From Dysgonamonadaceae bacterium (GTDB lineage Bacteria; Bacteroidota; Bacteroidia; Bacteroidales; Dysgonomonadaceae): DNA of 64,000 nt. Shown one piece after another: positions 44,958-47,401 of this stretch (its first letter is position 1; each line of letters opens with the position of its first letter). The stretch is taken from the NCBI GenBank assembly GCA_031254645.1, contig JAIRUA010000008.1:1-64000 (forward strand). The letters run 5' to 3'. The notes under the pieces are model-generated. The model was not told where the DNA came from, made no database searches, and worked only from the letters and a program-made list of their open reading frames with translations. The position numbers were made by a program, and so were the translations under genes.

Positions 44958-46343
44958 TTATAACATCTTCCCCGTCAAAAATAAAACGGCTATCGAAAAA
45001 TAAATAATCAACCCTGTAACATCCACAAGCGTAGCCACAAAAGGAGCGGAAGCGGTTGCCGGGTCTAATTTGAATCTTTTTAGTATAAACGGAATCATTG
45101 AGCCGGCAAGCGTTCCCCAAAGTACAATGAAAATAAGCGAACAAGCAACGGTTATTCCTACCCATATCCAAAAAACACCATGATCGTGAAATCCTGCTTG
45201 TTGCCATATTAATATTCTGAAAAAACCTACAACTCCCAAGATAGTACCTAAGAGCAGTCCCGAAAAAATTTCTTTGCGCATCACATACCACCAGTTTTTC
45301 AACTGCAATTCGCCCAAGGCGAGCGAACGGATAATAATTGATGCCGCTTGCGAACCTGAGTTGCCTCCACTCGAAATAATCAACGGAATAAACAGAACAA
45401 GTACGATTGCTTTTTCCAGTTGGTCCTCAAAGTGGGTCATTGCCGATGCCGTGAGCAACTGTCCGAAAAATAAGATGACAAGCCAAGGCGAACGTTTTTT
45501 TATCATTTCAAACACCGAAGTTTTGGTGTAAGCCAAGTCCAATTCCGCTGTACCACCAAACTTTTGGAAGTCTTCGGTACTTTCCTGCTCCTGTACGTCT
45601 ATCACGTCGTCAACCGTAACAATGCCCAAAAGCGTACCGTCTGTTGCGGTTACGGGCAGGGCAACGCGGTCGTGATCGGCAAATACTTTTACGGCAACTT
45701 CCTGGTCATCATAAGCATTGAGAGAGACAAAACGATTGTCGCTCAATTCGGAAATAAGTTTATCAGCAGGCGCTAAAATGATTTCACGGATTTTGACGTC
45801 GTCAATCAATTTCCAATCATCATCAACAATATAAATAACATTCAAGGTTTCGGAGTTTTGTCCGAATCTACGAATATGCTCCAATGCCTCTTGCACCGTA
45901 TAATAAGGTTTTACGGCAACATATTCGGGCGTCATCAAACGTCCGATACTCTCTTCAGGATAACCCAGGAGTTTTGTGGCAATTTCGCGCTCTTCTTTCG
46001 ACAACATTTGTATCAAACGTTGACTCATCGTGCCGGGCAATTCCTCGAAAAAAGCAGTACGGTCGTCAGGGTCAAGGTCGTTTAGCAGTGTCGATAATTT
46101 ATTGACATTAGCAGCCAAACTTTCAATAATATCCTCCTGCTCCTCATAAGAAAGGTGCTGAAAAGTCTCTTTTGCCAGCTTGCGCGACAAAAGACGAAAT
46201 AAGATAATTTGGTCTGATTTGGGAATTTCTTCAAAAATTTCCGCAATTTGAACAGGGTCGAAGTTGGTTAACTCATTCTTTACTTCTTTCCATCTGTTCT
46301 CTTCAATCAGTTGTAGAAAATGGATTTTTATGCTATCACTCAT
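44958..46343 (-). CDS. mgtE: Magnesium transporter MgtE
   Basis: Mg2+ channel of the inner membrane, 461 residues. Order: cytosolic N domain (about 1-130, LRLLSRKLAKETFQHLSYEEQ-type superhelix), two CBS domains (about 135-255, MTPEYVAVKPYYTVQEAL and VTATDGTLLGIVTVDDVID) that sense cytosolic Mg2+, the linking plug helix, and five membrane helices (about 285-460) with SSGGNSGSQAASIIIRSLALGE and FVATLVDVTGLIIYF pore signatures. First gene of an mgtE-coaA operon. About 160 bases of leader precede it, holding a 20-codon open frame and a hairpin whose base is six bases before the ATG (see 46349-46458). No M-box riboswitch is recognisable. Confidence 0.96.
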   Translation of the reverse strand: MSDSIKIHFLQLIEENRWKEVKNELTNFDPVQIAEIFEEIPKSDQIILFRLLSRKLAKETFQHLSYEEQEDIIESLAANVNKLSTLLNDLDPDDRTAFFEELPGTMSQRLIQMLSKEEREIATKLLGYPEESIGRLMTPEYVAVKPYYTVQEALEHIRRFGQNSETLNVIYIVDDDWKLIDDVKIREIILAPADKLISELSDNRFVSLNAYDDQEVAVKVFADHDRVALPVTATDGTLLGIVTVDDVIDVQEQESTEDFQKFGGTAELDLAYTKTSVFEMIKKRSPWLVILFFGQLLTASAMTHFEDQLEKAIVLVLFIPLIISSGGNSGSQAASIIIRSLALGELQLKNWWYVMRKEIFSGLLLGTILGVVGFFRILIWQQAGFHDHGVFWIWVGITVACSLIFIVLWGTLAGSMIPFILKRFKLDPATASAPFVATLVDVTGLIIYFSIAVLFLTGKML

Positions 46344-46348
46344 ACGAT

Positions 46349-46380
46349 AATCTCTTTACAATTAGTCCGATAAAGAGATT
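46349..46380 (-). promoter_or_regulatory. Hairpin directly before the mgtE start codon
   Basis: On the mRNA AATCTCTTTA (46380-46371) and TAAAGAGATT (46358-46349) form a perfect 10-bp stem with a 12-base loop, ending 5 bases before the mgtE ATG. No T run follows, so it is not an ordinary terminator. It could block ribosome entry at mgtE. The AGAGA side could also pair with UCUCU at 46389-46385, giving an alternative fold. Confidence 0.6.
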
Positions 46381-46395
46381 TCGATAGAGACCCCT

Positions 46396-46458
46396 TTACA
46401 GAAACACTACATTTTTAATTTTTTTACTGTCGTTACTCGGATAAGGGTCCTCGTCCAT
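46396..46458 (-). CDS. Putative mgtE leader peptide, MgtL-like
   Basis: A 20-codon frame, ATG at 46458 and TAA at 46398-46396, lies wholly in the mgtE leader. The product begins MDEDPYPSNDS and ends KKIKNVVFL: acidic and proline-rich first, then basic and hydrophobic. The sequence before the ATG is A/T-rich, as expected for Bacteroidetes translation starts. Enterobacterial MgtL (leader of mgtA) has the same layout, MEPDPTPLP followed by a basic tail, and its acidic/proline start makes ribosomes fall off when Mg2+ is low, which turns on mgtA. Codons 3-5 (GAGGACCC) could pair with GGGGTCTC just after the stop codon. Coding status is inferred; a 20-codon frame can occur by chance. Confidence 0.5.
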   Translation of the reverse strand: MDEDPYPSNDSKKIKNVVFL

Positions 46459-46509
46459 AATGAAATAATTTAAATTCTTTGCCAATAGTGGCGTTTTGTA
46501 ATTTGGGTG

Positions 46510-46517
46510 CAAAGATA
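46510..46517 (-). promoter_or_regulatory. mgtE promoter, -7 element
   Basis: TATCTTTG on the minus strand (46517-46510). Transcription would start near 46503, about 45 bases before the small frame and 160 before mgtE. The -33 region falls in an arm of the repeat at 46523-46628. Confidence 0.6.
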
Positions 46518-46522
46518 CGAAA

Positions 46523-46628
46523 AATAATGATTAGTGGTTAATGTTTAATGATTAATGTTGATGAATGGCTGTGTTGAGATGCCGTTACCCTAACATTAAT
46601 CATTAAACATTAACCACTAATCATTATT
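46523..46628. repeat. Perfect 37-bp inverted repeat overlapping the rsmA 3' end
   Basis: Arms 46523-46559 and 46592-46628 are exact complements (AATAATGATTAGTGGTTAAT at the outer left end). The right arm encodes the last residues of rsmA (KIMISG, stop TAA at 46612-46610). The left arm abuts the mgtE promoter. The hairpin is the apparent rsmA terminator and isolates mgtE. Related units lie at 17460 and 37571. Confidence 0.9.
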
Positions 46629-47401
46629 TTCTCAATAAGATTTGTCAGTTCTTCAAACTGTTCGATAGACAACTGTTCGGGTCGTTTTGTGAAAATTGGG
46701 TCATCGGGTAGCGGACAATCCGGCGGGAAAAACAGTTTGACAGAATTTCTCAACATTTTCCTGCGCTGATTAAAACTTGCTTTCACGACCGATTTGAATA
46801 ACTTTTCATTACAATTGAGTTGTTTACGATCATTTCGCGTCAGACGAATGACTGCCGATTTCACTTTTGGCGGCGGAATAAAAGCATTTTCATCCACCGT
46901 AAAAAGATATTCGATATTGTACCACGCTTGCATCAAAACACTCAAAATACCATACGTTTTGCTGCCGGGTTGCGCTGCCATTCGTTCCGCTACTTCTTTC
47001 TGAATCATCCCCGTGCAGCAAGGAATCGAGTTCTTGCTATCGAGCACTTTGAAGAAAATTTGCGAAGAAATATTATACGGATAATTGCCGATAACACAAA
47101 ATTCGCCGGAATAAAGTTTTGCGAAATCTATTTTAAGAAAATCTTGTTGAATGATTCGTCCTTCCAGTTCAGGAAAATGTTGATTGAGATAAGCAATTGA
47201 TTCCCGGTCAATTTCCACAACAGTGAGGTCTCTGTTGTTTTGCAGCAAAAACTGCGTAAGCATACCGGTGCCCGGTCCCACTTCCAACACAGGAAGCGAT
47301 GGAAAGCTATCAAGCATTGCTGCAATACGACGTGCAATTTCTTCTTCCTTCAAGAAATGCTGCCCGAGATTTTTCTTTGCTTTGACCGAAAATAGCATCA
47401 T
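46610..47401 (-). CDS. rsmA: 16S rRNA dimethyladenosine transferase RsmA/KsgA
   Basis: Dimethylates two adjacent adenosines near the 3' end of 16S rRNA during small-subunit assembly. 263 residues. KAKKNLGQHFLKEEEIARRI, SAM-binding VLEVGPGTGMLTQFLL, TVVEIDRESIAYL, catalytic VIGNYPYNISSQIFFKVLD (N-x-P-Y motif), and VDENAFIPPPKVKSAVIRL with SFNQRRKMLRNS in the C-terminal domain. The C-terminal tail is encoded by an arm of a 37-bp inverted repeat. Divergent from pepD. Confidence 0.96.
   Translation of the reverse strand: MMLFSVKAKKNLGQHFLKEEEIARRIAAMLDSFPSLPVLEVGPGTGMLTQFLLQNNRDLTVVEIDRESIAYLNQHFPELEGRIIQQDFLKIDFAKLYSGEFCVIGNYPYNISSQIFFKVLDSKNSIPCCTGMIQKEVAERMAAQPGSKTYGILSVLMQAWYNIEYLFTVDENAFIPPPKVKSAVIRLTRNDRKQLNCNEKLFKSVVKASFNQRRKMLRNSVKLFFPPDCPLPDDPIFTKRPEQLSIEQFEELTNLIEKIMISG

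Follow-up and report, generated by a model that had tools for sequence, protein, structure and literature searches.

Organization of the mgtE leader

The window, i.e. the whole stretch of DNA analyzed, spans 64,000 nucleotides of a Dysgonamonadaceae genome and carries on its minus strand, at positions 44958–46343, the mgtE gene. The 461-residue Mg2+ transporter that it encodes is recognized by PF01769, PF03448, CBS and TIGR00400 (419.8 bits for the last one, the cut-off being 232.75), and we propose that mgtE is the gene controlled by the leader described here. On the other side of this leader lies a gene (46610–47401) that we take, from its protein sequence, to be rsmA/ksgA. The original prediction, made from the letters of the window, had placed upstream of mgtE a promoter element, a 20-codon frame able to pair with a downstream segment, and a hairpin five bases before the mgtE ATG; all four are present. 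The minus strand carries (i) a −7 promoter box of the Bacteroidetes type, TATCTTTG (46510–46517), just 5′ of the short frame; (ii) the frame itself, MDEDPYPSNDSKKIKNVVFL, which comprises 20 codons and a stop codon (46396–46458, ATG at 46458 and TAA at 46396) and is kept in 83 leaders; (iii) at the start of this frame, the sequence MDEDP (46444–46458), which matches an N-terminal motif M-[DE]-[DE]-x-P delineated by codon entropy and proposed to consist of ribosome-destabilizing codons. Of 81 leaders, 68 have a TAnnTTTG box located 22–97 nt upstream of the short frame, whereas shuffling predicts 4.2.

Three helices can be drawn in this region. The P1 helix, supported by covariation in an arm-swap test, pairs GGACCCTT (46450–46443, codons 3–6) with AGGGGTCT (46395–46388), which directly follows the stop codon, and consists in the window of eight pairs, one of them G-U. 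The 3′ arm of P1 overlaps segment A, CUGUAAAG (46394–46401), which contains the frame end and the stop codon. The other two helices, likewise supported by covariation, share segment B, AAUCUCUUUAUCGG (46367–46380), a partner of either A or C, segment C being UGUAAAGAGAUU (46349–46360), 5 nt before the mgtE start and AAGGAG in most relatives. In the putative closed state, B pairs with C to form the start-proximal hairpin AATCTCTTTA...TAAAGAGATT, which ends at 46349, exactly five bases 5′ of the mgtE ATG (46343); in the putative open state, the frame end CTGTAAAG (46401–46394) pairs with the 5′ arm of this hairpin, giving an alternative helix. A single short frame starting with ATG-GAN-GAN-NNN-CCN exists in the window, and one further site opens a frame of more than 33 codons. 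The leader elements are far from what chance would produce, as tens of relatives show them together with covariation and codon-level conservation.

A large, near-perfect inverted repeat (46505–46640) separates ksgA from the mgtE promoter, with one arm running into the −7 box. This arm has 47 matches in the genome, some of them arranged as inverted pairs; the repeat is a palindromic element present in many copies, and the mgtE promoter lies next to or within it.

Distribution of the leader and conservation of its peptide

A protein search with MgtE retrieved 67 loci, mostly from Bacteroidales. A short frame starting with M-[DE]-[DE] is present 92–126 nt before the mgtE start at most loci whose MgtE is at least 60% identical to that of the window, and at a good number of those with 43–56% identity. 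The leader is mostly absent before the other, approximately 50%-identical MgtE genes of the GTDB family to which the window belongs, the short 5′ leaders of two relatives (L039 and L057) are devoid of the frame, and a reduced symbiont (L070) has no leader. One contig labelled Desulfovibrio (L069) bears a Bacteroidales-type mgtE (69% identical) preceded by the C element at the leader end, the frame being absent; this contig is probably mis-binned or rearranged.

A covariance model, R1, was built from 46 mgtE leaders only and run on 393 Bacteroidales genomes (E ≤ 0.01). With the strict filters used, which make the following frequencies lower bounds, it gave 35 matches in 34 genomes and in 26 of 205 genera. 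The genes lying 3′ of these matches encode MgtE (19 cases), CorA (14 cases, two assigned by PF01544 and the rest by the same protein start), an MgtA of the TIGR01524 family and, in one case, a CzcB-CzcA-TolC metal-efflux operon. A separate search for MgtA yielded a second mgtA gene with a leader, MDDGPFSRKNAVTTTHQ (L148), which was confirmed by a model not trained on it (R2, E 0.002). Since the same switch precedes three unrelated families of Mg2+ transporters, Mg2+ is the best candidate for the signal, and this association is the strongest argument for it. Most corA genes lack the leader, which was found at one of 30 strong CorA loci; it occurs in a clade of CorA proteins of 309–310 residues. 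No such leader was found before the mgtA gene of the window genome itself, and no model match was obtained in the genomes of the class sample outside the order Bacteroidales. A weak third match in the window genome (L153, E 0.29) was rejected because it lacks the acidic/proline frame. Neither the window nor eight relatives had a relevant match in Rfam, even below threshold (M-box/ykoK and the mgtA leader included), and no description of a Bacteroidetes mgtE leader of this kind was found in the literature or libraries searched.

The resulting set contains 83 distinct leaders, 66 of them before MgtE, 14 before CorA, two before MgtA and one before the metal-efflux operon. All 83 have an acidic residue at codon 3 (51 Glu and 32 Asp; GA[A46/C28/G5/T4]), a count somewhat inflated because an acidic codon at this position was demanded by the pattern used to assemble the initial mgtE set. 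Codon 5, which was not part of this pattern, specifies Pro in 80 leaders (CC[G45/T18/C11/A6]) and Ser or Arg in three functional-looking ones (L087, L144 and L065). The entropies of the first, second and third positions are 0, 0 and 1.46 bits for codon 3, and 0.16, 0.09 and 1.65 bits for codon 5. Thus, all four GAN and all four CCN codons are used, and, because the third bases vary while the first and second ones stay fixed, selection acts on the amino acid. Codon 2 encodes Asp or Glu in 76 leaders and Lys or Asn in seven, and, like the GA of codon 3, it lies outside all three helices; codon 4 is free (Gly, Asp, Val, Ile, Glu and others). The short conserved frame with an acidic/proline start and the synonymous bias of its changes, both expected from the original prediction, are therefore observed in the relatives.

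Beyond codon 5, the peptide is not conserved and the codons drift. The short frame belongs to the 5′-terminal part of the mRNA and comprises 10–21 codons. Two reading frames are used across the nucleotide block AAGUAUUAACNNCUCUGUAAGG, one closing with UAUUAA (KQKY then stop) and the other with CUGUAA (VLxxL then stop). Note that in the relatives the block AAGUAUUAACnnCUCUGUAAGG (46396–46412 in the window) contains stop codons in two frames, species differing in the one used. In most leaders the stop codon lies within segment A or a few nucleotides 5′ of it, according to an automatic assignment of the segments in which the helix is misplaced in some rows. A ribosome terminating at either of the two stops would cover segment A.

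Mutually exclusive helices and their predicted response to ribosome position

In the mgtE leaders, the A:B helix, formed by the frame end and CUCCUURCAGAG, is paired in 94.1% of the alignment cells, with eight of its ten pairs changed on both sides; none of 500 shuffles was as well paired, and sliding the partner by one base brought pairing down to about 50%. The B:C helix, in which B pairs with UGUAAGGAGAU before the start, is paired in 91.8% of the cells; both partners have changed in nine of its 11 pairs, and no shuffle out of 500 reached this level of pairing. These proportions are 91.0% for A:B and 90.1% for B:C when the CorA-linked leaders are included. Because B cannot pair with both A and C, the two helices define a two-state switch. 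Since the register of P1 shifts between species, this helix was assessed by arm swapping, that is, by comparing native with crossed pairings. Native pairing exceeded crossed pairing with z = 7.6 in 46 leaders, z = 7.0 once similar leaders were removed (0 of 5000), z = 4.6 in 37 leaders outside the first alignment and z = 1.9 in 17 non-MgtE leaders. P1 is absent from some leaders, for example those of the MDDIP clade.

The covariation expected for the frame-to-downstream pairing and the start-proximal hairpin is thus found, and the role initially given to the former has to be revised. The original prediction had the early codons, by pairing with the downstream segment, expose mgtE; P1 overlaps A:B, is compatible with the blocking hairpin B:C, and favors the closed state. 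Exposure would instead depend on A:B, in which the frame end pairs with the hairpin's 5′ arm and which the earlier reading had missed.

As isolated hairpins, A:B and B:C have mean free energies of −15.0 and −12.5 kcal/mol, respectively; in full-length folds, P1 and B:C jointly win over A:B. When folding was computed before segment C is made, the mean B:A pairing was 0.53 for the ribosome-free leader; it was 0.64 when a ribosome occupied codon 3 and 0.10 when one stood at the stop codon, the latter setting giving the lower value in 82 of the 83 leaders. The window leader gave 0.66, 0.68 and 0.02, respectively. At full-length equilibrium, the B:C pairing was 0.89, 0.76 and 0.93 in the same three settings (0.96–0.98 in the window): the effect of the ribosome goes in the same direction but is weak, and the closed state prevails throughout. 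Equilibrium folding of the whole leader does not by itself reproduce the open state; since the closed state dominates at full-length equilibrium, opening must be co-transcriptional, i.e. governed by kinetics.

In most leaders B:C ends a few nucleotides before the start codon, a position held by covariation; inspection by eye showed just a few bases between the helix and the start codon, without the U-run of an intrinsic terminator. This location suggests translational control. Note that AAGGAG stands before most leader-bearing transporter starts, although Bacteroidia ribosomes reportedly fail to recognize Shine-Dalgarno sites (PMC9976891). Pairing of C with B accounts for its conservation.

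Proposed mechanism, alternatives and precedents

We consider it likely that the leader is a translation-gated, Mg2+-responsive sensor based on translation abortion; the Mg2+ signal, the triggering by ribosome drop-off or pausing and the translational output are inferred. According to this model, ribosomes would load onto the short frame soon after transcription starts. When Mg2+ is ample, they would translate M-D-E-x-P and go on to the stop codon, covering A there, so that B:C forms and the transporter start region is shut. When Mg2+ is low, they would dissociate or pause over the initial acidic/proline codons, thereby sitting on the 5′ arm of P1, which would stay open, and never reaching A; A would then pair with B immediately upon synthesis of the latter, leaving C free and the transporter translated. 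With no ribosome on the early codons, P1, formed by these codons and the post-stop segment, would pull the switch toward the shut state.

The same switch might control transcription termination by Rho rather than translation initiation. We regard this output as rather unlikely: mgtL and corL do act through Rho (PMC11282234, PMC11552253), but the maintenance by covariation of B:C a few nucleotides before the start codon fits a block of initiation, and no U-run is seen after this helix. A trigger of another kind, which we hold to be improbable, would be an attenuation by proline codons, low Mg2+ slowing decoding of Pro5 (for instance through limiting EF-P or deficient modification of tRNA-Pro) and the ribosome stalled on codons 3–6 opening the switch without dissociating. 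The presence of Pro5 in 80 of 83 leaders, with all four codons and even in leaders without a good P1, speaks for it, as does the reported importance of proline codons in mgtL (Gall 2016, as cited in PMC11552253); three leaders nevertheless have Ser or Arg at codon 5 whereas codon 3 is acidic in all, and the Pro codon of mgtQ mattered only through base pairing (PMC8092293). That the RNA alone senses Mg2+, as a riboswitch with a Mg2+-dependent fold in which the frame is a by-product of pairing, is very improbable. The three helices are conserved and the segment order permits an H-type pseudoknot of P1 and A:B, but the acidic nature of codon 2 and of the GA of codon 3, outside the helices, the occurrence of all four letters at the third position of both codon 3 and codon 5, and the tie between the stop codon and A in most leaders speak against it.

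The identity of the signal raises another alternative, namely that a different metal or a general ribosome stress is sensed, Mg2+ being merely one input. Divalent ions other than Mg2+ can be transported by CorA and MgtE, and the window genome contains a second copy of the leader, MNDDPYPSYSSVKTKTSTLL (L136, G000:C7:161000-168000; positions 165807–165925, minus strand), which precedes a CzcB/CzcA/TolC metal-efflux operon and not a Mg2+ transporter. We attach a low probability to this reading, as Mg2+ transporter families lie downstream of 34 of the 35 model matches and the nearest CzcB relative found (44% identity) adjoins mgtA, in divergent orientation, in another genome of the family (L145/L156, G035:C1:83896-87845), a neighborhood that would tie this type of efflux to Mg2+ genes. 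None of the CzcB adaptor relatives fetched has the leader. The efflux copy may also fit the Mg2+ reading, in that larger amounts of Mg2+ importer may let in toxic metals.

More tentatively, it is conceivable that a single portable ribosome-abortion cassette evolved independently in Bacteroidales and was placed before at least three unrelated families of Mg2+ transporters and, in the window genome, a metal-efflux operon, one peptide motif coordinating import and export of divalent cations in a class reported to do without Shine-Dalgarno sites. Sensing of Mg2+ through ribosome failure on an acidic leader peptide would then have arisen at least twice and be no enterobacterial oddity, and ribosome stability could be a general Mg2+ gauge. 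The leader would provide Bacteroidales with a post-transcriptional point of Mg2+ control, none being described in the literature searched, and would account for the conservation of AAGGAG in organisms reported to ignore Shine-Dalgarno sites; its dozens of natural variants could teach which nascent chains break ribosomes. The principle is already known from mgtQ, mgtL and corL, and the Bacteroidales version appears to be built from unrelated sequence.

The original prediction had likened the leader to MgtL. The core of this proposal, a leader peptide with an acidic/proline start and MgtL-like logic in front of a Mg2+ transporter of another phylum, is strongly supported by the conserved motif, the three covarying helices and the recurrence of the leader before MgtE, CorA and MgtA; by analogy, the closest precedent is nonetheless mgtQ–mgtB of Salmonella, which is translational, rather than mgtL, which depends on Rho. 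In mgtQ–mgtB, pairings 1:2 and 3:4, which block the start, have been shown experimentally to alternate with pairing 2:3, which frees it (−16.4 kcal/mol for 2:3 versus −12.26 kcal/mol for 3:4), and the Asp2 and Glu5 codons are needed to free the mgtB start (PMC8092293). Compared in logic, topology and energetics only, both systems have early acidic codons in a short frame, a proline codon (CCC in mgtQ) inside stem region 1, exclusive helices, a Mg2+ transporter and a translational output, presumed in our case. They differ in that mgtQ has eight codons and lies between two operon genes, behind mgtC, in enterobacteria and before the P-type ATPase MgtB, whereas the Bacteroidales leader has 10–21 codons and stands at the mRNA 5′ end before MgtE, CorA or MgtA. 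On the mgtL leader of E. coli and Salmonella mgtA, ribosomes drop off at low Mg2+ because of the acidic codons 2 and 4 (PMC11282234). The early acidic/proline nascent chain and the alternative RNA structures are shared with our leader, and translation of the upstream frame turns the transporter off, a logic we propose for Bacteroidales as well, but the motif is EPDP instead of [DE][DE]xP. Translation of corL likewise represses corA in E. coli and Salmonella (PMC11552253). Two exclusive RNA structures are a common feature, as would be frame translation inverse to a CorA-family transporter, whereas corL is Rho-dependent and has few acidic/proline residues. The erm and tetQ leaders are drug-inducible translational attenuators, in which the position of the ribosome on the leader peptide also decides which hairpin forms, the following start codon being blocked or freed accordingly; they differ by responding to antibiotic stalling and controlling resistance genes.

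Altogether, most of the 83 leaders, 82 of which precede MgtE, CorA or MgtA, have the early acidic residues and the proline in a short frame, and covariation on the shared segment B reveals exclusive structures hiding or freeing the next start, as in mgtQ and mgtL. Model R2 found no match in the E. coli mgtL–mgtA region (L169). Since neither this region nor any Rfam family matches, a convergent origin would be the simplest reading of what had been called an independent or very old instance; the leader thus probably works like mgtQ and mgtL while standing, by its sequence, outside the mgtL family.
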